In this document: one piece after another, positions 7,763 through 29,497 of the stretch
How the letters are laid out: each line of letters starts with the position of its first letter
Position numbering within the stretch: the stretch's first letter is position 1
Virus record (IMG/VR): IMGVR_UViG_3300026382_000035
Span: 1-39,370 of that record
Direction: 5' to 3' (one strand)
Origin: a virus
Length of the DNA stretch: 39,370 nucleotides
The notes under the pieces: generated by a model
Database searches by the model: none
Told to the model about the DNA's origin: nothing
Seen by the model: the letters and a program-made list of their open reading frames with translations, nothing else
Made by a program: the position numbers and the translations under genes

Positions 7763-8062
7763 ATGGAAGCTAAAAGATTTTTATTAGTAAAACAATCTTC
7801 CGATGATACAAATATAGGACTTCCTGCTGCTTCAACAATAGGTGGATTGGGAGTTGGTGCATATAACACACATAGGTATTTTAAAACATTGGGAGATTAT
7901 AAAAACAAAGACAATTTGCCAGAAAACTTGAAATCTAATGCTAAATTTAATAGAGCCAATAAATGGTTAGCTATAGGTGGACTTGGTTTTGGGTTGTATA
8001 ACGGTGTAAAAACATTGAATAATTTTTCTAATAAAACAAAAAATTTTGAAGGAATAGTATAA
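7763..8062 (+). CDS. Small tagged glycine-rich membrane protein
   Basis: A 99-aa protein that begins MEAKRFLLVKQSSDD, the first example of the N-terminal tag found on several proteins here. Two glycine-rich hydrophobic segments follow (ASTIGGLGVGAY at ~24-35 and LAIGGLGFGLY at ~71-81), separated by a polar stretch, so it probably forms a two-pass or hairpin membrane protein. Its stop codon overlaps the next start (TAATG), implying translational coupling to the 1771-aa protein. No family recognised. By position, after the portal and before tail-type genes, an internal or ejected virion protein is a reasonable guess. Confidence 0.55.
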   Translation: MEAKRFLLVKQSSDDTNIGLPAASTIGGLGVGAYNTHRYFKTLGDYKNKDNLPENLKSNAKFNRANKWLAIGGLGFGLYNGVKTLNNFSNKTKNFEGIV

Positions 8063-11000
8063 TGAGCAATATAAACAACAATAATAATAACAATAATTTG
8101 GAATTATCTTCAACAGCGCCTTATAGTTTTGCTGCAAAAGTAGGTGGGCTTGGTTTGCTTGTTGGACTTGGGAGCAAATACTCCAAGTTATCAAAAGGCA
8201 TAGGAGAAATAGTTTCAAACGGTGTAGTGCGTACACCTGAAGAATTTATATCCAATAAGATGAGTAATCTTAAATCTAAAATGAACTTATTAGAACACAA
8301 TGGACAAATTAATTCTGAAGAATACAAAAATATTAAAAATGAGTTTGATAAATATAATTCTCATATGTATTATAGAGCTGCTAATGATTACGGAGATGGT
8401 GCTAAAGCAGCTGAAGAGTATGCTAAAAAAAATAATATAGAGATGAAACCGTTATCTAATGAAGAGATTAGTTCAATTGAAAAAGAATTGGAAGAAAGAA
8501 AAAGAAATATAGGTAATGAATATGCCCAAAAAGCAGAGTCAGTAATAAATAAAGGCACTATTGGAGCAGGAGCTTTAACAGTTGGAGGTGCCGCAGGAGA
8601 ATATATAGTTAATAAGAAAAATAAGGAAAAGTTTAACAATTATGCTTTAACTAAAATGTCATCAATATTAACTGGTGACACAGAGGATGAAGAAGATAAA
8701 TATGATGATGGTATTGTTACAGACTTATCTAAAAATAAAACAGGGTCTTTGGTTGGATTAGGTATGGGTTCTTTAATAGGTTCTTATGGTTTAAAACATG
8801 GAGCCAAAATGATGGAAACACAAGGTAAGGTAGCTGGTAACTATGTGAAAAATTTAGCCAATGAATCCAATAATATGAGTAGGGAAAATGAAGCCCTATT
8901 AGAAAGATATGGAAAACCTAGTAATATGCCAGAAGATGTTTTAAAAAAGTATGAAGAAAATAAAACTAAAATTAAGCTAAATTTAACTAAACAGGAAGTT
9001 GCTGCTGCTAGAACAGCATTAACTAACTCATCTTTAGCTTCTTGGGCTGAAAAATTAAAATGGTTTTCTGTTGCTCCATTAGCAGTAGGAGCCGCTGGAT
9101 ATTTAAACAAAAAACTAAATCCTTCTAATCCATCTTTAATTAACAATGATGACACTGCAGAAACAATATCAACTATAGGTAATATTGGTAGTTTGGCAGG
9201 TTTAGGGTTGATAGCTGCAGGTTCTCATAGACCATTTATTAAACCTATGTTAAACACATTTAAAGCTGCTAGAAAAGGAAATAAAGACATTAATTTAGAA
9301 GATTTATATGAGGGAACATCTTTTTCTCAAGCTAAAGATGTTGACAAAATAAAAGAAGAGATAGAAAGTAAAAAACCAGAGGACTTTTTAACTGAAGCTG
9401 GTAGAAACGCCGCTAAAGATGAAGCTGCTAAAGATATTGAAGTAGCTAAAAAATCAATAGAAGATGTTCCATTTAAAAATGATTTAAGAGCTGTAGGTAT
9501 TGGGTCAGGATTATTTGGAACTGGTGTTACAGCGAGCAGTATGACACCAAATCAAAAAGAAATAGATACTACTCAAGATAGAAGAGATACATTAAGAAAA
9601 ACATTACTTAAACAGTCTAGCGAGTTAAGATTATCTAATTACTTATATAAAGAAGCATCTCTTGGTTCAATGTTGAGAAATGTAGTTGATAAAACTAAAA
9701 ATGTTGGTAAAAATATTAAAAATGTTGGTAGTAAAGCCAAAAAATATGCTGAAACTGGGACTAAAAAGCTTGACAATGTAAGTTTAGCAACTAAATTGGG
9801 TATAGGTGGTTTAGCAGGAACTATGGGAACTGGAGCAAACTTAGCAAGTAAAGCTGCAGAACACTTTAATTTAGGAGCATTAGGAGAATTAGGAATTCCG
9901 TTAGGTGCTCATGTATTACAAAATATATATATGACTCATTTAGTAAATAATGGATATGTGGGTAGAAAAGCATTAGAGTATGTTAAAGCAGGTAATAAAG
10001 GTAAATTTAATACTACAAAAATAGGGCAGTTTTTAGAAGGTTTACACCACGGAACATTAGCTCCAGATATGAGTGTTGTAAGAAAAGAAGCATTAGAATA
10101 TGGAAAGATGTTTAAAGAGAAAGGTATAGATTTTGAAAATCTTGATCCACACGATAAATTATTTTTAGAATCGTACTTAAAAGGTGATATAAAAAAGATG
10201 CTTGATTCTATGCATAACTCAAAAGTAGCTAGTGTATTAATGTCTAAAGTTATGGGTTCAAGCAAAAAAGCATCAGTAATACAAGAAGCTATGCAAAGAG
10301 CAAAACAAAGCCTTACACCTGAAGATGAAGAAGCTATAAGAAATTCATTAAAAGACTCATCTTTCCATCATTTAGCTGAAGCAATGGTAGGAAAAGATAC
10401 ATTAGGAAGAAAGCTTAATGTTAATAGTGATTATTCAGGAGAAGTAATAAGAAAAGCTTTTGATAATAAAGTTGGTAGATTTTTTTCAGACAAAATGGCA
10501 ACTCCTAAAAAAGTAATTGATAAGATTTTATCTAAACACAATAAAGAAATGGATATAGAAGAAGCCGAAAGAATAAGAACAGGTGGACATATAACTGGTG
10601 GATTAGGTACTATGCTTGTAGACCCACTTGTTGGTGGATGGAATATGGTTAAACCATGGGTTTCTAGCACACCTATTGCTGAAAAATTAACATCTGCTAT
10701 ACTTGCTGGAGATGCTAGTAGAGAGATATTAGGGCAATCAACAAAAGGTGGAATGGTAAGCGGAGCAGCTTCTTCGTTATTATTATCACCTACTTTTTCA
10801 TTAGTTACTGGTGGAGCAGGGCTTACAGGTAAAACTATTAATGAAATAATAAAAAGAGGGCTAACAAAAGAGGAATACAATAAAATTATTAACAACAAAG
10901 ATTTACAGGAAACAGCAGCAGCTCCTGTAGCAAAATTATTTAATGGTTCTATAAATGCTATTGCTAAATTAAAAGGATTGAATAATTTAGAAGCAAAAAT

Positions 11001-13377
11001 AGAAGCACCAAAAGAAAGATTAGTGGATAAAGCTGTAGGAGATGTTAAAGATGTTTTAGGAGAGGGTATTACTAAAGGTCATATAGATAATGAAAAATTA
11101 GCAGATTTAGCTGATGCGTATGGTGAAGAAGCAGGTAATGCTGTTGTAGATGCTTCTACTAAAGCAGCAAATAAATTAAATAATCTAAATCTTAATGCAG
11201 GGTTAAATAGAACAACTGAAGCTAGTGAAGCGTTAACTCATAAATATGGGTTACCTGGGACAATAGCAGGAGCAGCATTACTTTCAACACCAGCGCTTTC
11301 TAGTTCTTATAGAGACTACAAACAAAGAAGAAGAGAAGCATTACAAAAAACAGCAGAATATAATGATGATAATACTCAACCAATGTCTCAAACAAGTTCA
11401 TTATTAGCAGGAGGTGTTGCTGGTGGTTTATTTGGGTATGGTAAAGAGTTAATTAATACTTCTGTTGCACAAAACAATATGAAAGTGGAAATAGAAAATC
11501 TTAAACAACTATTTAAAACAAATCCAAAAGAAGCAATGAAGATTTTTAATGAAGTTAAAAACAATCCAGCTAATAAAGGGTTTGTGAATTCTAAAGAATT
11601 TAAAGATTTAGAAAACCATATAACAGATTTTCATAATAAATATATAGATATTGAGACTAATAGTGATGAGGTTAAAAAACTTAAAGCATTAGAAGAAAAA
11701 TTCAATAAAATGAAAATACCTACTAACCAAGAAAAAGGGTATTTTATTCCTACTCTAAAAAGTTTTTACCATATGGCATCTAATAAAGAGGCTATGGATG
11801 AATTAAATAAAATAAAAGAAGCAGGAATAGATACATCAGAAGTGGATAAATTGTTAAGTAGTTTTTATGCTAAAAAGAAAAAAGTGATTGATGAATTTAA
11901 AGAGAGTGGTGCTGTTCATGGAAAAGGTAATGCTCTATTAAATAAAAATATAGAAAATGCTACAAATGTTATAAAACCAAGCTTAATGAAAGTATTAGGT
12001 AAAACAACATTAGGGGCAGGTATTGGTGCTGGAGCAGCGTATTTAGGTAATAAATTATATAACTCTTCTGCTAGAACACAATATAAAGATGGTGAAAATT
12101 TCAAAGAAGAGCCTATAACTGATAAAATAGGAATAGGTACAATATTAGGGACTGGAGCAGGTATAGGTTTTATGAAAGGTAAAAATAAAATCATATCTAG
12201 TTTAATAAACAAAACTCTTGATGATCCGTATATAAGTTTAGAAGCAAAAAATTCATTACTTAACTCACTTATTCCATCACACAGAGGTTCAACTGATTAC
12301 TTAGGAGAAACAATAAAACATAAATTATTTGGTGGGTATGGTGCAGATGCTGAAAAAGCTACAAAACATGGTATAGCTAAGCCTTATATGGATTTAGATG
12401 AAATTAAAAATAAAATACATGTATCGCAAAAAGCTGGAGAAATGGATGATATAGTTTCAGGAAGTATAGCAGGTGGTTCTATGGGAGCATTAGCAGGTGG
12501 ATATATCGGTATGCAGTCTAATGCAAACAAAAGAAATGATTATGCTTTAGTGAATAACCCTTCTTTATTATTAAAACAATCAAATTTTAATGCCACACAA
12601 CAAATGCAACAACCACAAGAAAATCACGATAATGCTATAATTGCAGCCCCTTTAATTGCTGGTGCAGGTACTGGAGGAGCTATAGGGTGGCAAAGAAGTG
12701 GTTTAAAACAGCTTACTTCACAATCAAGATTAGATTCTTTAAAAGAAGTTAATAATACTTTTAAAGATATAAATAAAGACGATTTCCATAAAGTATTTAA
12801 AAACCACCAAGTAACTTCTGATGTTATAGAGAATTTACAAAATTATAACGCTGGTAAAAAAGTTTTAACTTCTCAACAAATAAAAGAATTTAATGAAGCT
12901 AAAGCAAAATTAAATGAATTGCTAGAAAAAAAAGCTCCATTAGAACTTAATTTAGCAGCATATAACGCAGCAAAAAGCCAAAGAAACGAATTGTTACATG
13001 GTTCAAAAGCAGAATTAGCTGACGGAATGGGAGATTTAATTTCTAAAAACATACCTAAAGACCTTATTGATACATCTCTAGGGGAACATGCATTAATAGA
13101 TCAAACTGACCCTAAAGTAGAAGAATTTGTTAGAAAGAATCAAGAGGAATTGTGGAACCATGAACAAGAAATAAGTAAACATAGAGATATAATTAATAAA
13201 CATAGTAAAACAATATTAGGTTCATTAGATGAAGTATTGCCTGATATAGAAAGAGAACATAAACTTATTCCTTTAAAAGGAACACTGAAAGGTGCAGGAA
13301 TAGGTTTAGGAGTGGGAGCATTAGGAAGTGCATTACTTGCTCACGATTTACATAAAAACAATAATATAAATCAATAA
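8062..13377 (+). CDS. 1771-aa multi-module glycine-zipper membrane protein
   Basis: The largest gene. It starts with an Asn-rich stretch and then alternates glycine/alanine-rich hydrophobic segments (for example VGGLGLLVGLGS, LVGLGMGSLIGSYGL, LGAGIGAGAAYLG, AGGSMGALAGGYIG, AGIGLGVGALGSALLA) with long charged helices. Sequences like the N-terminal tag of neighbouring proteins recur inside it: LLKQSS (515-520) with YLYKEAS (527-533), LQKTAE (1094-1099) and LLLKQS (1502-1507). Each follows a glycine-rich segment and a basic linker, exactly as the end of one tagged gene is followed by the start of the next further downstream. It therefore looks like about four tagged proteins fused. An ejected, membrane-inserting internal virion protein is inferred; a tape measure is less likely given so many glycine zippers. 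Confidence 0.6.
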   Translation: MSNINNNNNNNNLELSSTAPYSFAAKVGGLGLLVGLGSKYSKLSKGIGEIVSNGVVRTPEEFISNKMSNLKSKMNLLEHNGQINSEEYKNIKNEFDKYNSHMYYRAANDYGDGAKAAEEYAKKNNIEMKPLSNEEISSIEKELEERKRNIGNEYAQKAESVINKGTIGAGALTVGGAAGEYIVNKKNKEKFNNYALTKMSSILTGDTEDEEDKYDDGIVTDLSKNKTGSLVGLGMGSLIGSYGLKHGAKMMETQGKVAGNYVKNLANESNNMSRENEALLERYGKPSNMPEDVLKKYEENKTKIKLNLTKQEVAAARTALTNSSLASWAEKLKWFSVAPLAVGAAGYLNKKLNPSNPSLINNDDTAETISTIGNIGSLAGLGLIAAGSHRPFIKPMLNTFKAARKGNKDINLEDLYEGTSFSQAKDVDKIKEEIESKKPEDFLTEAGRNAAKDEAAKDIEVAKKSIEDVPFKNDLRAVGIGSGLFGTGVTASSMTPNQKEIDTTQDRRDTLRKTLLKQSSELRLSNYLYKEASLGSMLRNVVDKTKNVGKNIKNVGSKAKKYAETGTKKLDNVSLATKLGIGGLAGTMGTGANLASKAAEHFNLGALGELGIPLGAHVLQNIYMTHLVNNGYVGRKALEYVKAGNKGKFNTTKIGQFLEGLHHGTLAPDMSVVRKEALEYGKMFKEKGIDFENLDPHDKLFLESYLKGDIKKMLDSMHNSKVASVLMSKVMGSSKKASVIQEAMQRAKQSLTPEDEEAIRNSLKDSSFHHLAEAMVGKDTLGRKLNVNSDYSGEVIRKAFDNKVGRFFSDKMATPKKVIDKILSKHNKEMDIEEAERIRTGGHITGGLGTMLVDPLVGGWNMVKPWVSSTPIAEKLTSAILAGDASREILGQSTKGGMVSGAASSLLLSPTFSLVTGGAGLTGKTINEIIKRGLTKEEYNKIINNKDLQETAAAPVAKLFNGSINAIAKLKGLNNLEAKIEAPKERLVDKAVGDVKDVLGEGITKGHIDNEKLADLADAYGEEAGNAVVDASTKAANKLNNLNLNAGLNRTTEASEALTHKYGLPGTIAGAALLSTPALSSSYRDYKQRRREALQKTAEYNDDNTQPMSQTSSLLAGGVAGGLFGYGKELINTSVAQNNMKVEIENLKQLFKTNPKEAMKIFNEVKNNPANKGFVNSKEFKDLENHITDFHNKYIDIETNSDEVKKLKALEEKFNKMKIPTNQEKGYFIPTLKSFYHMASNKEAMDELNKIKEAGIDTSEVDKLLSSFYAKKKKVIDEFKESGAVHGKGNALLNKNIENATNVIKPSLMKVLGKTTLGAGIGAGAAYLGNKLYNSSARTQYKDGENFKEEPITDKIGIGTILGTGAGIGFMKGKNKIISSLINKTLDDPYISLEAKNSLLNSLIPSHRGSTDYLGETIKHKLFGGYGADAEKATKHGIAKPYMDLDEIKNKIHVSQKAGEMDDIVSGSIAGGSMGALAGGYIGMQSNANKRNDYALVNNPSLLLKQSNFNATQQMQQPQENHDNAIIAAPLIAGAGTGGAIGWQRSGLKQLTSQSRLDSLKEVNNTFKDINKDDFHKVFKNHQVTSDVIENLQNYNAGKKVLTSQQIKEFNEAKAKLNELLEKKAPLELNLAAYNAAKSQRNELLHGSKAELADGMGDLISKNIPKDLIDTSLGEHALIDQTDPKVEEFVRKNQEELWNHEQEISKHRDIINKHSKTILGSLDEVLPDIEREHKLIPLKGTLKGAGIGLGVGALGSALLAHDLHKNNNINQ

Positions 13378-13389
13378 AAAGGATAAAAA

Positions 13390-13716
13390 ATGAGATCAAA
13401 TGAATTTGTTTTATACAAAATGGCAGAGGATGCAGCATATGATACTAATGATAATGAAAACTTAGGTATAGATTTAAAACAAGGTTATCAATTAGCACAA
13501 GACAAAGGATATATTCCTGCAACTGTATTAGGTGTAGGGGGAGTTTTGTCTGGTAAAGGTTTTAAAGATAGAAGTATAAGAGGTCTTGCAGGTGTAGGAG
13601 CTGGATTAGTTGGAACTATAGCTGCAAAAGCAGGGGTTGATGTTTATAAAAGACATAAACACAGAGCTGAAGCAGAGAAGAAATTAAAAGAACAAATGAT
13701 ATACGGAGAAATGTAG
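13390..13716 (+). CDS. Small tagged glycine-rich membrane protein
   Basis: A 108-aa protein with AAAAAGGATA upstream. It begins MRSNEFVLYKMAEDA, matching the shared tag. Residues ~50-85 are glycine-rich and hydrophobic (ATVLGVGGVLSGKGF and GLAGVGAGLVGTIAAKAG), followed by a basic C-terminus (VYKRHKHRAEAEKKLKEQ). Organisation is tag, acidic segment, membrane hairpin, basic tail. It is in the same operon as the giant protein, 12 nt downstream. Likely an internal virion or membrane-active protein; no known family. Confidence 0.55.
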   Translation: MRSNEFVLYKMAEDAAYDTNDNENLGIDLKQGYQLAQDKGYIPATVLGVGGVLSGKGFKDRSIRGLAGVGAGLVGTIAAKAGVDVYKRHKHRAEAEKKLKEQMIYGEM

Positions 13717-13717
13717 A

Positions 13718-15610
13718 ATGATTTTTCCGATCAGTGTTTTTGAGGCAGCACCTATTTCTGATTTTTGGAAGAAGAAAAAAAATATAAGCAAAGGTGTGTC
13801 TGCTACATTTGATGTAAAAGAATGGAGTATGGCAGATGATGATGTGTTAATGGATGTATTAGCTGAAGACAATGAAGTTTACATTATGCAGTATTCTGTT
13901 GATAAAAAAACAATACTAAAAAAGTTTACACCTACTAAAACATATTTTTATCATCTGGGTTGGTTCCCTTCTTATTTCTTTTCAGGGGCAAAAACAAGTT
14001 TCGGTGTTCTTAAAAAATTATCTCAAACAATGATGGTGTATGGACCATTGTTAATAGACTTAAAGAATTTCGCGTTAAGTATGTATTGTAACCCAATGAA
14101 AGTTAGGTTTAAATATTTCGCAGATAAAGGAATGTCTATTTTTGATGTTAGCACTGTAGTGTTATCACCTACTAGTTGGATATATATAGAAAGCTTTCCT
14201 TATGGGTCTAAAGGTTGGAAACAAAGAATAGCACTATATCAGTTTACATCACCAATGAATTGTTTACCATGTGATACAATAAAAGAGTTATTAGAATTAT
14301 CAGGTAAAGATACTAAGGCATTTACTTGTAAGGTAGAAGAAGATAATTATGCAAAGGTAGACTACTTATGGAGAGACTGGGTTTCTGAACAAGATACAGA
14401 CAATTTGAAATCAATGTCTATAACTGAAGGAGCATTAACAAAGGCCAAGCCTATACAATTCACTAATGACACAAATAGATGTATTACACTTATGAAGCAG
14501 GTTATGAATATGGTTGGGTCAAAAGTAGTTACAGCTAGGTCTGCTAAAATATTTGAAGATTATTATACAGAGTGTGATATAGGAAAATTAAATTCTTTTG
14601 TTTCAGTTGTTACAGCTAATAAAAGAGCAGAACAGATAAGACGTAAGAATATAGATTTGGATAACGTAGATTCCCTAAGTAAAATAAATACAGATCTAAC
14701 TGCTGTATACACTGACATTATCAAACTAATAAGAGATGTTAAGAAATTCTCAAATGATGATGATGATACATTTAAGTTTATAAAAGGTGTATTGGCAGGG
14801 GAAGCAATAGATATTATTAAAATGAATATAAATATGAGAGATGTTTACGATAAAGTAGAACAAGGAGAAAATGCTTGGGATGTTGTAGGAACGTATAATG
14901 ATAGTATGATTAAACATCTGATACAATCTATACCTAAACCTACAAATGAACCATCTATTGATTACCAAATGGTAAAAAGAAAAGTCTCAACCTCAACTCG
15001 ATTTTCACAAGATATTAGTTATGTATGTATGGGACCATTAGGGTGTATAAAAGAGATAGAGTTTGGGTATATTAAGAATGTATTTGATACTATAGTTAGG
15101 GCTGATGTAATAGATGAAGATAATATACTATTGTGGGGCTTTGAAGACTTAAATGCTAAACATTTACCATCGATGCATACTTGTCAATATAATAAACCAA
15201 TATATGTTTATCATATATATCTATTAAATGTATCAACCAAAAAAGCTAAACATATTAAAACATTTGATTTAGAAGATGATTTTGTTCCATTAGATACAGG
15301 TTCTATAGCTGTAAATGGTGTAATTAAAAAAGATTATTTAATATTTAGAGATTATTATATAGCTTCTTTTTCTTTGTCAGACCCAAGTGGAATAGAAGTG
15401 GATTACATGGAAGTAAAAAAACCATTAACCGGAATATCTTATATAAAAGAAAGTCGTTCGACATTTATTAATACAAACATAAACGTAATGTCTACTTGGA
15501 TGTATAGTATACATTACCATAGCGCTTTACCTTCTTTACCTGATGAAAAAAGAGGACCGAAAGATATAAGCTCTGCTGTTTATGGTAGTGATTGGTTATC
15601 AACAAAATAA
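13718..15610 (+). CDS. Predicted tail or baseplate structural protein
   Basis: A 630-aa protein starting 1 nt after the previous stop codon, with GGAG about 9 nt upstream of the ATG. It is not glycine-zipper-like: it is rich in aromatic residues and beta-forming stretches (for example PTKTYFYHLGWFPSYFF, STVVLSPTSWIYIESFPYG) and has a charged helical middle (~300-400). I recognise no domain. Size, composition and the following receptor-binding-type gene suggest a tail, neck or baseplate component. There are no obvious signal or membrane segments. Confidence 0.45.
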   Translation: MIFPISVFEAAPISDFWKKKKNISKGVSATFDVKEWSMADDDVLMDVLAEDNEVYIMQYSVDKKTILKKFTPTKTYFYHLGWFPSYFFSGAKTSFGVLKKLSQTMMVYGPLLIDLKNFALSMYCNPMKVRFKYFADKGMSIFDVSTVVLSPTSWIYIESFPYGSKGWKQRIALYQFTSPMNCLPCDTIKELLELSGKDTKAFTCKVEEDNYAKVDYLWRDWVSEQDTDNLKSMSITEGALTKAKPIQFTNDTNRCITLMKQVMNMVGSKVVTARSAKIFEDYYTECDIGKLNSFVSVVTANKRAEQIRRKNIDLDNVDSLSKINTDLTAVYTDIIKLIRDVKKFSNDDDDTFKFIKGVLAGEAIDIIKMNINMRDVYDKVEQGENAWDVVGTYNDSMIKHLIQSIPKPTNEPSIDYQMVKRKVSTSTRFSQDISYVCMGPLGCIKEIEFGYIKNVFDTIVRADVIDEDNILLWGFEDLNAKHLPSMHTCQYNKPIYVYHIYLLNVSTKKAKHIKTFDLEDDFVPLDTGSIAVNGVIKKDYLIFRDYYIASFSLSDPSGIEVDYMEVKKPLTGISYIKESRSTFINTNINVMSTWMYSIHYHSALPSLPDEKRGPKDISSAVYGSDWLSTK

Positions 15611-15620
15611 TGGAGTTAAA

Positions 15621-17423
15621 ATGATTAGGAATGCATTAGATGTTACTAAGTATGGATTTTACAAAGACCCTGAACTAAGATTACCTTTGGGGCAAGATAA
15701 TTTATATGACCAAATAGATACAGATGGGTGGGTTAGTTTGTATTATGGGGGACACAGTATTTTCATTCCTCAAATAGGAGACTTTAATACTTTTGTGTTT
15801 TGTAACACAACATTCTTTTGGGATATAATGGATGAAAATAATAGAAGAGTTAAAACAGGTGTTAAGCAATTGTTTATCAGTAGAAATGTGAATAAAAAAG
15901 TATGGTATGGAGATTTAATTCCTTCATCTCCAGAAGAAGTGTTTGATTATTATAGTCCTGATACAGCAGCACCTGAAGATGTTCCATTGATATGTTCTAA
16001 TATATGGTTCTACAATAATTTATTTTTAGATGAATATTATAGATACAACTTAATAGTGCTACATAAAGACTATGAATGGCCAGATGATAACAATGCTGTA
16101 ATATTACCTATGAATGATAGGCTACATTTACCAAAAGACCATTACATTGTTGGATATAGACCAAAACCAGAGTATTTGTTTAAATTAGCTGTAATGCCTA
16201 GAATAAAGTCTGGTAAGGAAAACGCAATACATTTTAGAATAAAGATGGATATAGACTTTTTAAATAAACATCCAGGTAGTTATAGACAATTAAGAATATT
16301 TGCTATGACTAATGACTCTCCACAATATATGATTTACCCTGAAGTGCCAGAAGATATTATTTGGGATAACTATCACCACTTATATGTGCCAGAATACAAA
16401 AGATACTTATTAGAGTGGGGAATAAATGGTAATTTACCAGGAGAAGCTGCTTTACAGCAAATATATAAGAAAAAAGAGTATCTAATCAAATATAGTAGAA
16501 TATTGTCTCAATTAGATAGTTTTAATTTTAAGGATGTAGTAGATAACTATAAAAAGAAAGCCGATAAACCTAACTACAAAATGGTTGGATTACCTAAATA
16601 TTTGTATAAACCTTATAAGATATGGGAAGAACAATATACTAACGATAAACAGCCTGTAAAACAAATGGATATCCTGAATTATATCTTATTCAAGAAAACA
16701 CCTTTTAATGGTTTTCAAAGGTTATATAATGCCTTATACAATGTTAATGAACATGTAAATAACGCATTAAACACATCTGATGAAGAGATAAAAAAACATT
16801 ATATTGTAATGAAAGATGGTGTTAAGCAGTTTAATACTGAATATGTTCCAGATAATGCAAGAGGTTATCTTGATCCACCACAAGGTTATTATTATGCAGG
16901 TAACACTGGAAATGGTATGTATCTTATTAGAGTTAACGGTGTGCCTACTCCTGTATGGTGTGATATGAAGAATGGTGGTTGGATGATGTTAATCAATGGA
17001 GTTAATTTTAATTTAGATTATGTGAATTCATTGTTTAAAGAACCTGTTCCTGAAGATGCTATTATAGAAGATAAAGGATTAGCTTTTCCTATTGAAAATG
17101 GGTCAAGAGCTATGACTACTAATATAAAATACAAAGATGTTAAAGTTGGATTAGTTGATATAGCAAGTAATTGTGGTTTTATGAAATTAGAAATATTCGG
17201 AGACAAAGATAGATATGTATACAATGACCAAGGTTATACTGATGAGTGTAAATCTGTACTTATATTAGGAGATGATATAGAGTATGATGAGAACACAGAA
17301 GAAAGAGGAGATTATTACGAAGTGACAGGAAAGAAAGAAAATAAACTCTTGAATATAAAGTATACAGCACTACATGAATTTAAAAAAGTGTTAAAGTATG
17401 TTAAATTCCTTTGGGTAAGATAA
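15621..17423 (+). CDS. Tail protein with C-terminal fibrinogen-like domain
   Basis: A 600-aa protein; the ATG at 15621 is chosen because GGAG lies 6 nt upstream. The N-terminal ~400 residues look like a beta-rich tail module with many Tyr, Trp and Pro (for example QDNLYDQIDTDGWVSLYYGG). From ~415 the pattern changes to GYYYAGNTGNGMYLI, then PVWCDMKNGGWMMLI (Cys447, CDM, GGW), the hallmark start of fibrinogen-C/FReD domains, which bind sugars or acetylated groups in animals and bacteria. Two more Cys lie downstream (ASNCGF, TDECKS). A receptor-binding or adhesin role on the tail is inferred. The fibrinogen match covers mainly the first half of the domain; the second half is divergent. Confidence 0.6.
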   Translation: MIRNALDVTKYGFYKDPELRLPLGQDNLYDQIDTDGWVSLYYGGHSIFIPQIGDFNTFVFCNTTFFWDIMDENNRRVKTGVKQLFISRNVNKKVWYGDLIPSSPEEVFDYYSPDTAAPEDVPLICSNIWFYNNLFLDEYYRYNLIVLHKDYEWPDDNNAVILPMNDRLHLPKDHYIVGYRPKPEYLFKLAVMPRIKSGKENAIHFRIKMDIDFLNKHPGSYRQLRIFAMTNDSPQYMIYPEVPEDIIWDNYHHLYVPEYKRYLLEWGINGNLPGEAALQQIYKKKEYLIKYSRILSQLDSFNFKDVVDNYKKKADKPNYKMVGLPKYLYKPYKIWEEQYTNDKQPVKQMDILNYILFKKTPFNGFQRLYNALYNVNEHVNNALNTSDEEIKKHYIVMKDGVKQFNTEYVPDNARGYLDPPQGYYYAGNTGNGMYLIRVNGVPTPVWCDMKNGGWMMLINGVNFNLDYVNSLFKEPVPEDAIIEDKGLAFPIENGSRAMTTNIKYKDVKVGLVDIASNCGFMKLEIFGDKDRYVYNDQGYTDECKSVLILGDDIEYDENTEERGDYYEVTGKKENKLLNIKYTALHEFKKVLKYVKFLWVR

Positions 17424-17429
17424 ATTTGG

Positions 17430-17435
17430 TATAAT
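17430..17435 (+). promoter_or_regulatory. Promoter -10 before the lysis-type genes
   Basis: TATAAT preceded by AAATTTGG, 20 nt before the ATG at 17455, with AAAAAAGGAG between. Confidence 0.55.
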
Positions 17436-17454
17436 AAAATAAAAAAGGAGAACA

Positions 17455-17811
17455 ATGGAATACTTTTACTTGAACAGCGAAACTGGCAAGTGGAGCGTAA
17501 TCAGAGATATATACGAAGGTTTTAATCCTGGTGTATCTAAAGATAAAATAAAAATACCTTTTGGGTATAAGTTTAAAAATACATTATGTATACAAGCAAT
17601 GAAGTTTTTGTTGGATAAAAAACATTTTAACAAATTACTTATGATGATAGCATTATCAAGGGTAACATTAACACTCTCTGATGAGTTTAAAATGGAAGAA
17701 CGATACATAAAAAAAATACTAAGAGAGTATGTTAATACTTTAGATATAGCAACATGGATTAAAGTTATATTTAAAACAGCAATAACACTACAAAAAAAGG
17801 ATATGAACTAA
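17455..17811 (+). CDS. Hypothetical protein upstream of holin
   Basis: A 118-aa protein with a strong AAAAAAGGAG site 6 nt before its ATG and its own promoter. The first ~45 residues look beta-rich (MEYFYLNSETGKWSVIRDI); the remainder is predicted helical and basic (from LCIQAMKFLLDKKHF). The final hydrophobic helix (ATWIKVIFKTAITL) may be amphipathic rather than membrane-spanning. The stop codon overlaps the next ATG (TAATG), so it is coupled to the holin-like gene and may belong to the same late or lysis unit. No family recognised. Confidence 0.5.
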   Translation: MEYFYLNSETGKWSVIRDIYEGFNPGVSKDKIKIPFGYKFKNTLCIQAMKFLLDKKHFNKLLMMIALSRVTLTLSDEFKMEERYIKKILREYVNTLDIATWIKVIFKTAITLQKKDMN

Positions 17812-18287
17812 TGTTTGGTATAGCAACTATGTTAGCATCTGCAGGAGCTAATCTTGTGGCTAACTTTATTGATAAAGGTAAAGAAGAAGCGGTAGATTTT
17901 GTTAAGGAAAAAACAGGTATTAATCTTAGAGTAGATACAGACCCTGGTAGTATAGCTAAAGTTGAAAAATGGGCTAAAAACAATACAGAAGCCCTTAATG
18001 CTAAGTTAGCAGATATTCAAAATGCAAGACATATGCAAGAAATAGCATTGGTGCAAGATGATAAATTTAGCAAAAGATTTATTTACTATTTTGCTTTCTT
18101 CTGGTCTATTGTATCTGTTGCTTATATATTCTTAGTTACAATATATGATATACCTAAAACTAATCAAAGATTTGCAGATACTATTTTAGGTTTTCTTATG
18201 GGAACTATAATCAGTGGAATAATTACATTTTTTTATGGTTCATCATTAGGTAGTAAATCAAAAGACAACATTCTTGCTAAAAAATAA
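17811..18287 (+). CDS. Holin-like membrane protein
   Basis: A 158-aa protein with an amphipathic N-terminus (MFGIATMLASAGANLVANFI), a polar middle, then the segment ARHMQEIALVQDDKFSKRF followed by two strong membrane helices (~98-117 and ~127-148, FADTILGFLMGTIISGII) and GSSLGSKSK at the end. This arrangement, including the KRF-YY-aromatic start of the first helix and FADTILGFL, is a pattern I know from phage proteins annotated as holins or GTA-type 3TM holins. Such proteins would permeabilise the inner membrane at lysis. No endolysin is adjacent, so the role is inferred from sequence pattern. Confidence 0.6.
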   Translation: MFGIATMLASAGANLVANFIDKGKEEAVDFVKEKTGINLRVDTDPGSIAKVEKWAKNNTEALNAKLADIQNARHMQEIALVQDDKFSKRFIYYFAFFWSIVSVAYIFLVTIYDIPKTNQRFADTILGFLMGTIISGIITFFYGSSLGSKSKDNILAKK

Positions 18288-18289
18288 TT

Positions 18290-18322
18290 ATCAATAGGGT
18301 TATTTTGTTATTGATTTATTTT
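18290..18322 (+). terminator. Weak terminator after holin-like gene
   Basis: ATCAATA 18290-18296 pairs with TATTGAT 18309-18315 and is followed by TTATTTT. The stem is AT-rich, so termination may be partial. Confidence 0.4.
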
Positions 18323-18362
18323 AAGGTATCATTATTATCCAAATAAAAAAAAAGGATATAAG

Positions 18363-18884
18363 ATGCCAACAAGCATAATAAGTCTTAAGGACGCTGTATA
18401 CTTTGCGACAATCATTGGAGGTGTTGCCATATCTTGGGCAAAAACAAATGCTTCAGTGAAGAAAAACCAAAGAGAAATAGAAGTTCTTAGAGAAATGGTA
18501 GCTAATGAAATTAATAGTGAGAAGAGTATGGTGATACAGTCCATGAATACTATTAGTGAAAAGTTAGATGCAGGTTTTAAGAGAATTGATGAACTTAAGG
18601 TCAAAACGGAAGAGCTGGAAAAGAAGTCTATTGTTCATGTTAAGCAAAGTGACTTGAAAGCACACCCAACAAGAGAAGAGCTTCAAGATAAATTAACTAG
18701 TTTACAAAATGATGATAGAGCATTAAAAGACCAGATTACAGAATTAAAAAAAGAGATAAAAGACAAACTTCATGATTTAGATACTAAATTTGAAGACATA
18801 AAAAGCTCTCTTTTTGAACATGCTAAACAAGAAGGTGATAAATTAAATCATATTATTAATTTGATGTCGAAACATGAAAAATAA
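18363..18884 (+). CDS. Membrane-anchored coiled-coil protein, possible spanin-like
   Basis: A 173-aa protein with AAAAAGGATA before its ATG. Residues ~8-25 (LKDAVYFATIIGGVAISWA) form a single N-terminal membrane anchor, and the remaining ~145 residues are almost continuous charged coiled coil ending in KHEK. This topology (N-in anchor, long helical outer domain) is that of inner-membrane spanins, and it follows a holin-like gene. No outer-membrane lipoprotein partner with a lipobox is embedded or adjacent, so a structural or anchoring role is equally possible. Confidence 0.45.
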   Translation: MPTSIISLKDAVYFATIIGGVAISWAKTNASVKKNQREIEVLREMVANEINSEKSMVIQSMNTISEKLDAGFKRIDELKVKTEELEKKSIVHVKQSDLKAHPTREELQDKLTSLQNDDRALKDQITELKKEIKDKLHDLDTKFEDIKSSLFEHAKQEGDKLNHIINLMSKHEK

Positions 18885-18909
18885 ATTTATTTAATTCTAC
18901 TTCTTATGC

Positions 18910-18915
18910 TATAAT
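18910..18915 (+). promoter_or_regulatory. Promoter -10 for second tagged-protein operon
   Basis: TATAAT preceded by TTCTTATGC, 21 nt before the ATG at 18936, with AAAAAAAGGA between. It probably drives the chain of overlapping tagged genes to ~22.4 kb or beyond. Confidence 0.6.
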
Positions 18916-18935
18916 AAAACAAAAAAAGGACTATT

Positions 18936-19136
18936 ATGGATAGTAGTAATTTTGTTTTATTTAAGACAGCATATAATGAACATTCTCACCATGGAGCTCA
19001 ATTTGCTGCAAAAAGAAGGAGAAGCATGGGGTTTAAACCTCATGACTACACTCCAATACAAAGAAATCAATTTAAACGACAAATGAAAAGACAACAAAGG
19101 CAATATAATCTTACTGGTTATAGAGGCGGATATTGA
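18936..19136 (+). CDS. Very small tagged basic protein
   Basis: A 66-aa protein beginning MDSSNFVLFKTAYNE, a good match to the shared tag, but with no membrane segment. The rest is strongly basic and His/Arg/Gln-rich (HSHHGAQFAAKRRRS, RQMKRQQRQYN). It could bind DNA inside the head, a common property of internal head proteins. Its TGA overlaps the next ATG (TGATG). The lack of glycine zippers argues that the tag is not simply part of a membrane domain. Confidence 0.55.
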   Translation: MDSSNFVLFKTAYNEHSHHGAQFAAKRRRSMGFKPHDYTPIQRNQFKRQMKRQQRQYNLTGYRGGY

Positions 19137-20239
19137 TGAAAAGATATAGATTAATAAAAACAGCAGCAGATAGATTTAAAGATGATTTGTCAGGTAACAA
19201 AAGACTATTTGGTCCTGATGTTGATTATGAAGAAATAGAAAGAAGAATACATAATGGAGAACATGATTTAATAGGTAGGCTTCTAAATAATGCTGATGAT
19301 AAATTTCGAAAACATGGTGGAGGTTATCTTACTATTGGGAATAACAAAAGTAATGAGATACTGTATATAGATAAATTACACAATAAAGTATTTAATGAAG
19401 GTAAAGCTGGTTTACATAGAACATACGTTCAAAAAGTAAAAGAAGCTATAGCATACCATCAGTTAGCAAATGATTTGGCGTTTAATGATGCTAAAAACAT
19501 TAAGCAAATTTATGGTGATTTTGATTTATCTAAAAATTATAAATACCATCCATTGGAAAATATTGTTAATGATTATGTTAAGGGTGGTAAGAATATGCAT
19601 GGACATGCTTATAGGGCAATAACGCAAGACCCTGATTACATAAACAATATAAATCGTATGAAAAAGGAAAATTCAACAGATTTTAGTTGGTTTAAGCCTA
19701 AGTATGTAGATGAAAACAAATTACCTATTCATGAAGCAAAAGAAGCAGAGTTTAATCTGTTTAAATACACAAAAAAGAACAATAAAAAAGAAAATACATC
19801 AAATATAAAACAAGGAGAGCAGACAATGAATAATAGAATATTAAATAGCAATGAAGTTAGTAAAGTAGACCAATTTTTGTTCAATAATCATCCAGAGGTT
19901 TATTATAATTTTCATAAAAAATTAGACGAGGAAATAACTGAAGCGGCAGGAACAGATGAACCTAATGCCTTAAAGAGTTTTATTGCTACTCCAAAAGGTG
20001 TAGAGATTTACAATAAACATTACGCTAATTTATTAAATACACATTCAGACAAGTTAAAGCCTGTTTTAGGAGAAGAACATCCTGCTTTTGATAAAGCAGG
20101 GTTTATCAGTGTTCCTAACAAATCTGCATTTGAAAAACTTATGGAACATAAAGGTAAAATAGGTGCAGGAGTAGGTTTAACTGGATTAGGTGCTTATGCT
20201 TATTTAAGAAGTAAAGATAATTCAAAGGATAGAAAGTGA
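19136..20239 (+). CDS. Tagged protein with C-terminal glycine-zipper anchor
   Basis: A 367-aa protein; ATG 19136 is preferred over the in-frame TTG one codon earlier because it gives TGATG coupling. It begins MKRYRLIKTAADRF, a match to the shared tag. The long soluble middle is basic and unrecognised. The C-terminus (GKIGAGVGLTGLGAYAYLRS then a charged tail) is a single glycine-rich membrane segment. The same ending is present in the next protein, with 33 identical bases (20181-20213 and 20996-21028), which implies duplication or exchange of the anchor module. Confidence 0.55.
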   Translation: MKRYRLIKTAADRFKDDLSGNKRLFGPDVDYEEIERRIHNGEHDLIGRLLNNADDKFRKHGGGYLTIGNNKSNEILYIDKLHNKVFNEGKAGLHRTYVQKVKEAIAYHQLANDLAFNDAKNIKQIYGDFDLSKNYKYHPLENIVNDYVKGGKNMHGHAYRAITQDPDYINNINRMKKENSTDFSWFKPKYVDENKLPIHEAKEAEFNLFKYTKKNNKKENTSNIKQGEQTMNNRILNSNEVSKVDQFLFNNHPEVYYNFHKKLDEEITEAAGTDEPNALKSFIATPKGVEIYNKHYANLLNTHSDKLKPVLGEEHPAFDKAGFISVPNKSAFEKLMEHKGKIGAGVGLTGLGAYAYLRSKDNSKDRK

Positions 20240-21028
20240 AAGCAGCAAGTTATTTATTGCTAAAAACAGCAGAAAATGAGCAGCAAAGAGATATTACTAC
20301 TCCTGCCTTAATAGGAAGTGGTCTTTTAATTGGAGGCGCTGGTGGAGCAAGTTATATGCATGGCAATTCATTGGAGAATAAAAATAAATCACTTCATAAA
20401 ACAAAAGATGAATACCTTAGTAGAAAAAAAACGCCGGAGGAGTTGAAGAAATTATATGAATTAAAGGAAAGTGGAAAAGAATTTGTTACTTATTTAAAAA
20501 GACAAAAAGAAAATATAAAAAATAATTATACTCCAGAAGTAGAAAAAAACTTTAATAAATTTAAAGAGTTTCATGATGTATACAGTAAAACACCATTATC
20601 GGAAATACCAGAGGGAATAGAAAAAGCAGAACCAGGAATGCATTATACTTACGGAAAAGATGAACATCTTGATTATATGTATAAAACAATTAAAAACAAA
20701 AATCCTGAATTGTTACAAAAACATAATATAAAAAATTATGAGGACTTTAAGAAATTATATGAGAGTCAAAACGATTTTTTCCATAACACATATGGAGATG
20801 GGTATCATGAAGGATTGAAATATGCTGATAATAAAATTGATGAATATAAAAAAGATCTTAATGATATTTCCCAACAAATAAAACAGGATACTGAAATCCA
20901 ATCTAAGATCGATAATTTGTTACCTGAAATACAACAAAATGAAGAACTCGCAAAGAGATTTAAGCTTGGCGGTAAAGTAGGTATAGGAGCAGGAGCTGGA
21001 TTAGGTGCTTATGCTTATTTAAGAAGTA
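20181..21028 (+). repeat. 33-bp exact direct repeat at the ends of adjacent genes
   Basis: The 33 bases at 20181-20213 recur exactly at 20996-21028 and encode the same GLGAYAYLRS anchor end in two adjacent genes. Surrounding codons differ, so the identity looks like recent duplication or gene conversion. Confidence 0.75.
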
Positions 21029-21054
21029 GAAACAAATCAAAGGATGGAAAATGA
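20236..21054 (+). CDS. Tagged protein with two glycine-rich membrane segments
   Basis: A 272-aa protein starting at GTG inside a GTGA overlap. N-terminus MKAASYLLLKTAENE matches the tag. A glycine-rich segment follows at ~22-42 (PALIGSGLLIGGAGGASYM). A long charged helical region separates it from the C-terminal anchor (GIGAGAGLGAYAYLRS and a basic tail). The layout tag, membrane segment, helix, membrane segment, basic tail is the same as one presumed module of the 1771-aa protein. Function unknown; ejected or internal virion protein inferred. Confidence 0.55.
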   Translation: MKAASYLLLKTAENEQQRDITTPALIGSGLLIGGAGGASYMHGNSLENKNKSLHKTKDEYLSRKKTPEELKKLYELKESGKEFVTYLKRQKENIKNNYTPEVEKNFNKFKEFHDVYSKTPLSEIPEGIEKAEPGMHYTYGKDEHLDYMYKTIKNKNPELLQKHNIKNYEDFKKLYESQNDFFHNTYGDGYHEGLKYADNKIDEYKKDLNDISQQIKQDTEIQSKIDNLLPEIQQNEELAKRFKLGGKVGIGAGAGLGAYAYLRSRNKSKDGK

Positions 21055-22175
21055 AAAATTACAATTTAGTTAAGACAGCGATAGACAGAGCAACAAAAGA
21101 AATGCAAAAAGGTGAATTATCTGCTGAAGCATTAGAAAAAATGAGACAAGCAGGTATGATTAGAAGCCCATTAAGATATGCATATGGATTAAAAAAAGGT
21201 ACTGATAATTTAGCTAACAAAAATGGTTATAAAGTAGTTTACTTTACAGATAACAAAGTGGAAGGATACCCTTCTGGTCATGATATATATGAAAAAATAG
21301 GTGTAAATCCTGCTCAAATGGGAGGCGCTTTTACATATCCTGAAGCTAAAACTATTTATACTGCTCATCCATTTGTTGGAACAAATAATAATCCAAAAAT
21401 TCAATTAAATAACTCTATAGCTGCTTTTCATGAAGCAAACGAAGCATTGTATGATAGAAAAAGACAAAGAACTATAACTCTTCATCGACAACCTGCATCT
21501 AAATCTAGACTGGCTTTAGAAAAAATTCTTCAAGAGCCTGAAGAAGTAACTGAAACACAACAAAGATTAATTAATGAGAAGTATGGAAATGAATTTGACA
21601 AACTTACACCAATAGAAAAATATAGAGCAATTGAAGAGGCAAGACAACATCCTGATACGCAAAAAGTAATAAAAGATTTGCATAATCAATATGCTAACAA
21701 TAAGTTACCTGATAAACATGCTACAATTGGAATGCATGTTTCTCCACATGTATTACTTAATGAGGCAGATATGATGTCAAAAATACCTTACCAACATCAT
21801 TTTTACGGAAACCAAGCTTTATTAGGAAGTATAAGGCATGCCACAGGAGAAAATAGTTATTTAACAAGAATAACAGGTAGAAATGTTTATAGAACTGGTA
21901 AAAGACCTGGTGATGCTAAAAAATTATGGAATGAATTTAATAATACTAAAACAATACGACAAGGTAAGCAAAAATATAATATTTTAAATATGGCACCTCT
22001 GGATGAGAATAAAGTATATCACACTAAAAGAGCTGTATATGATACACCAGAAAATATAGCTAAGTATGAAGAGAATGAAATGAAAAAATTTGAGGAAAGA
22101 ATGGCTAGACGTAAAGCAATAAAGTCTAGTCTATATGGGAAATTTAAGAGCATGATTAATAAAGTTAGAAGATAA
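21051..22175 (+). CDS. Tagged soluble protein, 374 aa
   Basis: Starts at an ATGA overlap. N-terminus MKNYNLVKTAIDRATKE matches the tag. Unlike its neighbours it has no glycine-zipper segment and appears soluble, with a basic C-terminus (FKSMINKVRR). The centre contains AAFHEANEALYD, which recalls a metallopeptidase helix but has Glu where the second His of HExxH would be, and HATIGMHVSPHVLLNEADMM, a possible second His cluster. An enzyme carried in the virion would fit but is speculative. No family recognised. Confidence 0.5.
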   Translation: MKNYNLVKTAIDRATKEMQKGELSAEALEKMRQAGMIRSPLRYAYGLKKGTDNLANKNGYKVVYFTDNKVEGYPSGHDIYEKIGVNPAQMGGAFTYPEAKTIYTAHPFVGTNNNPKIQLNNSIAAFHEANEALYDRKRQRTITLHRQPASKSRLALEKILQEPEEVTETQQRLINEKYGNEFDKLTPIEKYRAIEEARQHPDTQKVIKDLHNQYANNKLPDKHATIGMHVSPHVLLNEADMMSKIPYQHHFYGNQALLGSIRHATGENSYLTRITGRNVYRTGKRPGDAKKLWNEFNNTKTIRQGKQKYNILNMAPLDENKVYHTKRAVYDTPENIAKYEENEMKKFEERMARRKAIKSSLYGKFKSMINKVRR

Positions 22176-22185
22176 AGGAAAGACA

Positions 22186-22416
22186 ATGAATGACAATAAA
22201 AAAGAAACAAGTATAGGAATTATCCCTTTGTTAGTTGGCAACCTTCGTTGGCCAACAGCACCTTTGTTTAAGTCTTCGTTTGAAAACTTAAACAAAACCA
22301 AAGAAGATGGTGGGGTGGAAAAAGTAAATCCATCTGAAATCTTGTTGAATAAAAACAGGGAAAACGGTGCTGCACCAGTCGGTGGAGTAGGTGGTCAAGA
22401 AAATGAAAACAGATGA
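22186..22416 (+). CDS. Small protein whose gene is rich in inverted repeats
   Basis: A 76-aa protein with AAAGGA before its ATG. Residues ~8-22 are hydrophobic with Pro and Trp (IGIIPLLVGNLRWPTAPLF); the C-terminus is Gly-rich and polar (GAAPVGGVGGQENENR). It lacks the tag. Its DNA contains an 11-bp perfect inverted repeat (22263-22273 with 22286-22296, 12-nt loop), a palindrome GTTGGCCAAC (22247-22256) and GGTGC-T-GCACC (22366-22376), far more symmetry than its neighbours. It may be dual-purpose: a coding sequence and a structured RNA. Confidence 0.45.
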   Translation: MNDNKKETSIGIIPLLVGNLRWPTAPLFKSSFENLNKTKEDGGVEKVNPSEILLNKNRENGAAPVGGVGGQENENR

Positions 22417-22450
22417 ATATTTTAAACCTACTACATATAAGGATGAATAA
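22403..22450 (+). CDS. Possible 15-codon ORF coupled to the next gene
   Basis: Reads MKTDEYFKPTTYKDE and ends in TAATG, sharing a base with the start of the gene at 22450. The overlap style is that of real genes in this genome, but the ribosome binding site is weak and the product is tiny, so it may only be a coupling leader. Confidence 0.25.
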   Translation: MKTDEYFKPTTYKDE

Positions 22451-23760
22451 TGAGAAGTTTTAGTTTAATAAAAGCAGCATCAAATGATTATGACTCTGTT
22501 ATCGATGGACTACTGTCTGGCGAATTCCACAGAAATGATCTTGTAATAAATGATGACGATGAGAGAACAAAGAGATATAATAAAAAAGTGATGGAAGATA
22601 AATCATATTATGATAAAGTTGAAAAAGCAAAAGAATTACAACGTAGAATGGAAATGGCTGCGTGGAAAGATGAAAAGAGAGAAGAAAGGCCATCAAAAGG
22701 TTTTTGGGGTGGCATTAAAGATAAAATAGACGATATAACAAGTGGTCCAACGGACAAATATATGGGTCTTGATGATTTCGGGAATGATAAACATATAGAA
22801 ATTTTAGAAGAATTAAGGCCACACATATCTGAAGACACACACAAAAAACATCATGACTTTATTCTAAAATCAATACAACAAAAAGCTGGTTCCATAAAAG
22901 AGAAAAAAATCGGTAGTTTTATTTCGAGATTACAAGGGTATAAACCAACGCATTTAACTGATAAAGAAGTAGAATATTACACTAAACATAAAGGCTCGTT
23001 AGGGAGTGATATTGTAAAACAAAATAATATAAATAAAAGCTTTAAACCAAAATCATCAGAAGCAGATCCATATGGAATAAGAAAATATATTCGCGGACAT
23101 AATGTTACTGGAATAGGAGTGGGAGCATTAGGTGTTGGAAGTGTTTTAAATAAGAAATTCAACAATAAAGAAAAACTTGACGGTTCAGATGCTGTTATGT
23201 TGGGTGGTTCTGCATTGGCATTAGGTGGTGCTGGATATGGTTCTGTTATGAATAAAAAATACGATGATAAGTATAACGAGGGATATAGTAAAGTAAAAAA
23301 GATAGATAGTGAAATAGAAGAAATAGAAAAGCGAATGCCTAGTGGGAGAGATATTAAACTTGAGAATATTAAATATGATAAAGAGCTTGATAGATTGTAT
23401 GATGAAGTAAATAGAATATCAGAACAAATGTATGATGATATTAATAATGCAAATAGTGGAAAAGAAATAGATAAAATAATGGCAAAATACAGAAAAGATA
23501 GTAAAAAAATAGATAACAAAATATCTGAAGTTAAAACAAAGACAAAGAAAATATTCCCTGCATTACATAAAGAAGAGGAAGTTGGGAAAGAATTGTCAAA
23601 AAAACGCGATGAATGGAAGGATGCGTTTAGAAAAACTCGTTCATTAAGAGACGGGCTTGATTTTCATAAAAAAATAACAGCTGGGACAATAGGAGCAGGG
23701 ACTCTATTAACTGCTGGTGGATTTTTGTATAATAAATATAAAAAAAGGGACAGAAAGTAA
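22450..23760 (+). CDS. Tagged protein with internal and C-terminal glycine zippers
   Basis: A 436-aa protein with AAGGA 5 nt upstream. It begins MRSFSLIKAASNDY, matching the tag. Glycine-rich membrane segments occur at ~220-232 (TGIGVGALGVGSVL), ~250-264 (VMLGGSALALGGAGYG) and the C-terminus (AGTIGAGTLLTAGGFLY followed by a basic tail). The rest is highly charged coiled coil. It has the most complex topology among the single-module tagged proteins and resembles part of the 1771-aa protein. Function unknown; membrane insertion after ejection is inferred. Confidence 0.55.
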   Translation: MRSFSLIKAASNDYDSVIDGLLSGEFHRNDLVINDDDERTKRYNKKVMEDKSYYDKVEKAKELQRRMEMAAWKDEKREERPSKGFWGGIKDKIDDITSGPTDKYMGLDDFGNDKHIEILEELRPHISEDTHKKHHDFILKSIQQKAGSIKEKKIGSFISRLQGYKPTHLTDKEVEYYTKHKGSLGSDIVKQNNINKSFKPKSSEADPYGIRKYIRGHNVTGIGVGALGVGSVLNKKFNNKEKLDGSDAVMLGGSALALGGAGYGSVMNKKYDDKYNEGYSKVKKIDSEIEEIEKRMPSGRDIKLENIKYDKELDRLYDEVNRISEQMYDDINNANSGKEIDKIMAKYRKDSKKIDNKISEVKTKTKKIFPALHKEEEVGKELSKKRDEWKDAFRKTRSLRDGLDFHKKITAGTIGAGTLLTAGGFLYNKYKKRDRK

Positions 23761-23809: not shown

Positions 23810-24319
23810 ATGTATGATGAAAATGGTAATTTAAAACAAGAACATCAACAAGACAATGGAGAAACAGCAATTGCTATGGGTGTGCCTGTTGGTATAGCAG
23901 GTCTTTATTTGCATAGAAAAGCAAACAACGAACTGAATTCTATAAACGAATATAACTCGTTAAAAACTCAAGCTAATGACTTGAAAAATAAAATAAGTGT
24001 AAAAAAATACGAAAACCAACAAGCATACAATAAGGCTAATGAAAGATTACAAGGACTTGACCCTAATAGTGAAGAATTTAAAAGTGTAGTTAAAGAATTG
24101 CCTAATGGAGATAGTAAATTATCATCTATGGAGGATACACTTAAAAAAACTTACACTCAAATAAATAATCACCACATAAATGGTGTAACTGATATGGAAC
24201 AATACAAGAATGCTATAGATAAAACAAAAGGTAGAGCAGGATTGTTAATGGGTGGAGGAGCTCTATTAGCCGGAACAGGACTTGCTAGTCACTTTTTGAA
24301 CAATAAAGGTAATAAATAA
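23810..24319 (+). CDS. Glycine-rich two-segment membrane protein without tag
   Basis: A 169-aa protein with GAAGGTG before its ATG. The order is an acidic start, a hydrophobic segment at ~22-34 (IAMGVPVGIAGLYLH), a charged helical middle, and a C-terminal glycine-rich anchor (GLLMGGGALLAGTGLASHF) with a short basic tail. The architecture matches the tagged family but the N-terminus (MYDENGNLKQEHQQ) lacks the tag. A tiny in-frame ORF at 23766-23798 (MFTTNPLTKK) precedes it and could be a leader. Stop overlaps the next ATG (TAATG). Confidence 0.5.
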   Translation: MYDENGNLKQEHQQDNGETAIAMGVPVGIAGLYLHRKANNELNSINEYNSLKTQANDLKNKISVKKYENQQAYNKANERLQGLDPNSEEFKSVVKELPNGDSKLSSMEDTLKKTYTQINNHHINGVTDMEQYKNAIDKTKGRAGLLMGGGALLAGTGLASHFLNNKGNK

Positions 24320-26019: not shown

Positions 26020-26045
26020 CCTTAAATGAAACTTAAGGCTTTTTA
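26020..26045 (+). terminator. Terminator after the 566-aa protein gene
   Basis: CCTTAA 26020-26025 pairs with TTAAGG 26033-26038 around a 7-nt loop, followed by CTTTTT. It begins the base after the stop codon. Confidence 0.6.
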
Positions 26046-26146: not shown

Positions 26147-26169
26147 TGTTAAAAAATTGGAGTATATTT

Positions 26170-28408: not shown

Positions 28409-28422
28409 ATAATGGGTTTTTT
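28394..28422 (+). terminator. Terminator ending the virion block
   Basis: AAAAAATCC 28394-28402 pairs with GGGTTTTTT 28414-28422 (one G-U); the stop codon is within the loop. The A-rich arm could make it work in both directions. Confidence 0.6.
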
Positions 28423-29495: not shown

Positions 29496-29497
29496 AA

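Follow-up and report, generated by a model that had tools for sequence, protein, structure and literature searches.

Seven proteins encoded in a viral DNA stretch of 39,370 nucleotides (positions 1 to 39,370 of IMG/VR record IMGVR_UViG_3300026382_000035; this whole stretch is referred to as the window) begin with a shared short tag, which is very likely a capsid-targeting propeptide as in phage T4, written in a different code: K-x-Ala/Ser instead of x-x-Glu. We propose that the tag is an N-terminal propeptide of 7-12 residues made of two elements. Towards the C-terminus, L-x-K-x-[AS] would be the prohead protease cleavage site of this phage group, whose members are large and little known, cut most likely after the Ala/Ser; the N-terminal element, here usually a polar residue and Tyr or Phe, would attach the protein to the prohead core. 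The tagged protein would be enclosed during shell assembly and the protease would then strip the tag; the mature protein would be carried in the head and probably enter the next host with the DNA. A 1771-residue protein encoded in the same region would be a string of cargo modules divided by L-x-K-x-[AS] sites.

The seven N-termini, and an eighth identified here, are listed with their orthologues in a related phage, G002, and their ranks under the position-specific scoring matrix (PSSM) described below; hyphens mark the end of the tag.

7763..7798, plus strand: tag MEAKRFLLVKQS (RFLLVKQS-S) of a 99-residue Gly-rich hydrophobic protein (7763-8062).
13390..13425, plus strand: tag MRSNEFVLYKMA (EFVLYKMA-E) of protein 13390-13716; the G002 orthologue starts MKALELIKVS.
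18936..18971, plus strand: tag MDSSNFVLFKTA (NFVLFKTA-Y) of a 66-residue basic protein; the G002 counterpart starts MELLKKVAS (weak homology, E 1e-4).
19136..19165, plus strand: tag MKRYRLIKTA (RYRLIKTA-A) of protein 19136-20239; PSSM rank 3.
20236..20271, plus strand: tag MKAASYLLLKTA (SYLLLKTA-E) of protein 20236-21054; PSSM rank 5.
21051..21080, plus strand: tag MKNYNLVKTA (NYNLVKTA-I) of protein 21051-22175; PSSM rank 1; the G002 orthologue starts MNALLKLS.
22450..22479, plus strand: tag MRSFSLIKAA (SFSLIKAA-S) of protein 22450-23760; PSSM rank 4.
26170..26190, plus strand: eighth tag, MNLLKEA, without an aromatic residue; the open reading frame (ORF) was called from 26134 and its true start is probably the ATG at 26170, behind GGAG.

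The sequence-only reading of this DNA had claimed a common N-terminal pattern, and it is present: aligned on the Lys, all seven proteins match [YF]-x-L-x-K-[TQMA]-[AS] within residues 4-12. The aromatic residue stands exactly two residues N-terminal of the Leu in 7/7 tags, for which the chance probability is ~4e-8 (Tyr and Phe make up 8.6% of residues). In the window proteome [YF].L.K.[AS] has eight matches, seven of them N-terminal (0.04 expected from shuffling) and the other within the 1771-residue protein. The looser motif [LIVFMY].K.[AS] is too weak for single proteins, and our claims are based on the tighter motif, the PSSM or conservation; it nevertheless tags 7 of the 14 proteins of the region 7763-23760 (0.75 expected, P ~1.4e-5) and 1/31 in the remainder of the window, this last match, in a pilin-like protein, being judged spurious. 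The tagged proteins are not strictly consecutive, untagged genes being interspersed. Translation starts at ATG in 7763, 13390, 18936, 21051 and 22450 and at GTG in 20236; in 19136 the ATG immediately follows a TTG at 19133. Identity among the tag codons is 0.54 at third positions versus 0.77-0.87 at first and second positions, and this variability at synonymous positions indicates conservation of the peptide and not of the DNA. Orthologues of tagged proteins retain the tag and those of untagged proteins remain untagged. None of the tagged window proteins has a significant Pfam or PHROGs family, the AlphaFold model of the 21051 protein was unusable (predicted local distance difference test, pLDDT, 50), and when the 13718 and 21051 proteins were scanned against viruses, no relative beyond G002 was found.

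The same site recurs in the head proteins of related phages, which were reached through the portal protein.

5666..7474, plus strand: portal protein, untagged, the link to G001, G002, G005, Arash and Vibrio phages.

The relatives of this portal are G001 and G002 (63-64%), Salmonella phage Arash and Vibrio phages D181, D148 and D69 (~27%). In these phages L-x-K-x-A was found directly before the N-arm of the capsid protein, in the pro-region of the protease and repeatedly in scaffold-like proteins; two such proteins of D181 contain 9 sites versus 1.1 and 1.5 expected. Five phages, among them Bacillus phage G, share an invariant Leu, Lys and Ala in a protease pro-region that is otherwise variable. 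In about 100 relatives, the Lys and the Ala are each present in 97/101 proteases, just before the domain; in the capsid proteins they are found in 92/108 and 94/108, respectively, before the N-arm. When a PSSM was built solely from the protease pro-sites, window tags ranked 1, 3, 4 and 5 of 12,276 positions. In Arash the site occurs in 20/53 proteins labelled structural versus 20/207 others (Fisher 4e-6), with the reservation that these labels are unexplained in the record and that the scoring matrix retains some dependence on close relatives of Arash; a search of the literature found no mention of this phage. The sequence-only reading had likened the tag to a propeptide that targets proteins to the head and is taken off by a prohead protease, and all the sequence tests made, on protease pro-region, capsid and scaffold-like sites, fit that proposal.

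The protease of G001 gave a confident model (pLDDT 84.5) with a disordered pro-region up to LVKTA, which ends at residue 40, and an ordered fold from residue 44 on. The closest PDB structure was T4 gp21 (probability 1.00, E 1.3e-3, template modelling score 0.40-0.53), with a herpesvirus protease lower among the matches, while a PDB search by sequence returned nothing useful. The nearest predicted viral structures were a protein from an uncultured phage, gp19 of phage G and other phage head proteases. Together with the fold match, the invariant His103 and Ser154 assign the enzyme to the gp21/herpesvirus-protease fold. The system had been suggested to be possibly unrelated to that of T4, but it is not wholly so, as the best PDB match is gp21 itself; what differs is the sequence code. 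Assignment to a Campylobacterota phage also found no support, a scan of genome contigs with the capsid protein having yielded no relative.

The head genes of the phage itself could be read from an overlapping contig, G004 (IMGVR_UViG_3300026484_000382, 74.7 kb), the start of which equals window positions 25807-39370. The two are 100% identical over these 13,564 nucleotides, which means that the source of G004 is this phage or one nearly identical to it; the contig extends the genome by a further 61 kb that encodes head and tail proteins. Its prohead protease, 67% identical to the modelled one of G001, has LQKEAS preceding its domain, its major capsid protein has LIKAA and LLKQA preceding the N-arm, and its scaffold-like proteins have about five or six L-x-K-x-A sites each. 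G004 adds nine aromatic tags, among them MGANRFLLYKQA, MRSFNLIKTA, MRAFDLIKTA and MNSKSYFLFKTA, bringing the window and G004 together to 16 (alternative starts counted) versus 0.64 expected. None of the nine had been listed before, and neither had the tag MNLLKEA at 26170 or the internal copies in the 1771-residue protein.

In relatives, the neighbourhood of the protease and capsid genes holds 138 distinct aromatic tags at protein N-termini versus 10.1 expected. Many read MNKYLEKIA or MKYFEKIA, often on several closely spaced genes. As the sequence-only reading had observed for the window, the remainders of the tagged proteins differ: the mature parts form 72 unrelated clusters, so the tag recurs on unrelated proteins throughout the group. 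In an alignment of 46 unrelated tagged proteins, conservation of at least 90% was found only at the Lys and Ala of the tag and in one Gly column. The tagged proteins of relatives include SNF2-type helicases, PARP-like and LigT-like proteins below the Pfam cut-off, and a Gly-zipper 2TM protein. The PARP-like (below cut-off) and SNF2-helicase proteins are encoded at L125 3543-4853, L075 5126-6973 and L076 6012-7367, and it is possible that they are injected enzymes; helicase, PARP-like, LigT-like and Gly-zipper cargo would suit delivery to the host.

The 1771-residue protein is likely a cargo polyprotein, judging from its internal copies of the site.

8062..13377, plus strand: 1771-residue protein, proposed cargo polyprotein of ~5 modules with 4 conserved internal sites and no N-terminal tag.
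8647..8661, plus strand: internal site 1, LTKMS (residues 196-200), LIKQS in G002.
9604..9618, plus strand: internal site 2, LLKQS (residues 515-519), LVKQS in G002.
9643..9657, plus strand: extra candidate LYKEA (residues 528-532), in a segment that G002 lacks; not conserved and weaker.
11341..11355, plus strand: internal site 3, LQKTA (residues 1094-1098), LGKTA in G002; PSSM rank 2 of 12,276.
12568..12582, plus strand: internal site 4, LLKQS (residues 1503-1507), LLKKQS in G002.

The G002 homologue is 30% identical and has its four sites at matching positions. Upstream of each internal site there is a Gly-rich hydrophobic stretch and, mostly, also a basic one. In relatives, the family of module 3 also occurs as separate N-terminally tagged proteins (PYLEKQSSLLAG, PYLEKSASLLAG, HLEKQSSLIAG and Arash gp100, MEKQASF). 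These observations support, without proving, that the internal sites are module boundaries. Further candidates at residues 673, 948 and 1621 were rejected, as the motif is missing there in G002. Neither tblastn in phages nor viral scans with the single sequence or a two-member alignment gave a new relative of this protein.

The tag could instead be a cleavage site only, marking head proteins for trimming while entry into the prohead goes through other contacts. The core L-x-K-x-A is common to protease, capsid and scaffold-like proteins, for which no cargo signal is needed, and Gly-rich proteins of similar build lack an N-terminal tag (23810-24319, 27314-28408 and 34215-34799). The tags of G002 are of the MKAL type with no aromatic residue, so that the proposed targeting residue is not universal, and G001 alone shows little tag excess (4 versus 2.0 expected); the tag seems to differ in form from phage to phage. 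Besides these observations, it must be counted against the proposed tag and polyprotein that the protease gene lies outside the window, on G004, and that the homology of module 3 is weak when a single profile is used (E 0.006-0.08) and moderate when profiles are compared with each other (probability 77%, E 2e-5). Nonetheless, we regard trimming alone as doubtful. In relatives, conservation of the tag reaches ~5 residues (NKY..) more N-terminal than a cleavage site requires, and nothing else is common to the mature parts. None of 97 protease sites and none of 92 capsid sites has the aromatic residue two positions before the Leu, against 7/7 window tags; its absence from protease and capsid sites suggests that it serves targeting. 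As for the bond, a cut after the Lys (L-x-K, then x-A) would be a formal copy of the T4 [LI]-x-E site with Lys replacing Glu; the spacing from the hydrophobic residue equals that of T4 and the protease has the gp21 fold. This position is rather unlikely. The Ala, two positions further along, varies as little as the Lys, and information is high from ~8 residues before the presumed cut to the Ala (3.1 bits) and then falls to 0.6 and 0.2, small residues being preferred next. This sharp drop directly after the Ala favours a cut there, and Ala is also the residue after which the herpesvirus proteases that share this fold cleave.

Common descent of the N-termini, from gene duplicates or a shared translation-start element with no signal function, might be considered given that the tagged genes are clustered and have AAAGGA-type ribosome-binding sites in common. 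It is very improbable: the mature parts are unrelated, the third codon positions of the tags vary, and the peptide is conserved inside the 1771-residue protein, remote from any start. A secretion or membrane-sorting signal would agree with the Gly-rich hydrophobic segments of several tagged window proteins, but the tag has no long hydrophobic core and 18936, 19136 and 21051 have no hydrophobic segment; such a signal, or mere chance, with 0.04 N-terminal matches expected and seven seen, is hardly credible.

Several other features of the window were recorded. At its N-terminus the protein at 30469-30921 has a methylation motif like that of type IV pilins (Pfam N_methyl, E 5.9e-6), unusual for a phage genome. 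A DUF1353 protein at 31158-31547 is homologous to Arash gp82, labelled structural, a short protein at 34015-34230 contains imperfect repeats IKAGWPD.GTC and ALMANT.WPP, and 36032-36733 encodes a Rha/ORF6C-type regulator. In G001 and G002 a large ORF lies near and downstream of the portal (L002 13207-17520 and L003 13297-17658) in which the signature NADYDGDQ, like that of RNA polymerase beta', was read by eye; Arash has an annotated RNA polymerase gene at the corresponding place, which in the window is occupied by the tagged cluster.

Whether a large phage group loads unrelated proteins, in relatives a SNF2-type helicase and a PARP-like protein among them, into the head by one portable tag with a K-x-Ala/Ser cleavage code and, in this phage, also makes a protease-split polyprotein of ~5 Gly-rich membrane-active ejection proteins appears to us an evenly balanced question. 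If true, sequence alone would suffice to list the proteins carried in the virions of many uncultivated phages, and a catalogue of candidate injected counter-defence proteins would be opened. A head-protease specificity without Glu would be added to those known, protein loading into phage heads would gain a second packaging tag beside that of T4, and maturation of cargo from a polyprotein would be suggested for some phages. A literature search that left subscription journals mostly outside its reach found no description of an L-x-K-x-Ala/Ser head-protease code or tag.

Homologous protease domains are found in Bacillus phage G gp19, Rhodococcus phage E3 gp77 and Gordonia phage Stormageddon gp13, and gp19 (L025) has LVKTA(A) at the corresponding place of its pro-region, residue 41. 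The portal of phage G (L025) has MAKQAA near its N-terminus, at residue 16, and these two motifs suggest that the cleavage code of phage G could be the same. The capsid proteins of the actinophages E3, Stormageddon and Sebata (L026, L027 and L028) have [FV]AKAS at residues 14-15, a possible variant of the site. No N-terminal series of cargo tags was seen in the regions examined of phage G, E3, Stormageddon and Sebata. In phage P1, the first 30 residues of DarB send a foreign protein into the head, and the Dar proteins have no common N-terminal sequence by BLAST (PMC9024508), unlike the tagged proteins described here. The phiKZ-like giant phages phiKZ and SPN3US have many internal head proteins, some head proteins pass into the cell, and propeptides contain several protease sites (PMC5694885, PMC10052503), and the N-terminal propeptides removed at protease sites, as in SPN3US gp245 and phiKZ, resemble what is predicted here. 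However, these phages cut after Glu ([SA]-x-E, A-x-E) and their inner-head propeptides are mostly longer than 100 residues (PMC5694885, PMC9026906), whereas the tags here have 7-12 residues and read L-x-K-x-A/S.

Short head-targeting propeptides and gp21-type proteases are already known from T4, and head-protease sites ending in Glu from T4, phiKZ, 201phi2-1 and SPN3US (PMC5694885, PMC10052503, PMC9026906). The T4 capsid-targeting sequence is an N-terminal propeptide of 10-20 residues on the internal proteins IPI-IPIII and Alt, which are diverse and otherwise little alike; it is removed by the prohead protease gp21, and targeting and processing have been assigned to different residues of it (PMC9026906, PMC3012670). 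The system proposed here shares with it a short N-terminal propeptide common to otherwise unrelated proteins and a protease of the same fold, the predicted gp21-like enzyme on G004 having the same site in its own pro-region. It departs from T4 in that the site also punctuates a likely cargo polyprotein and in the cleavage motif: T4 and its giant-phage analogues cut after Glu, while the window tags read K-T/Q/M/A-A/S with no terminal Glu. With a T4-like function and a motif that is not that of T4, the tag would represent a variant distinct from the T4 system.

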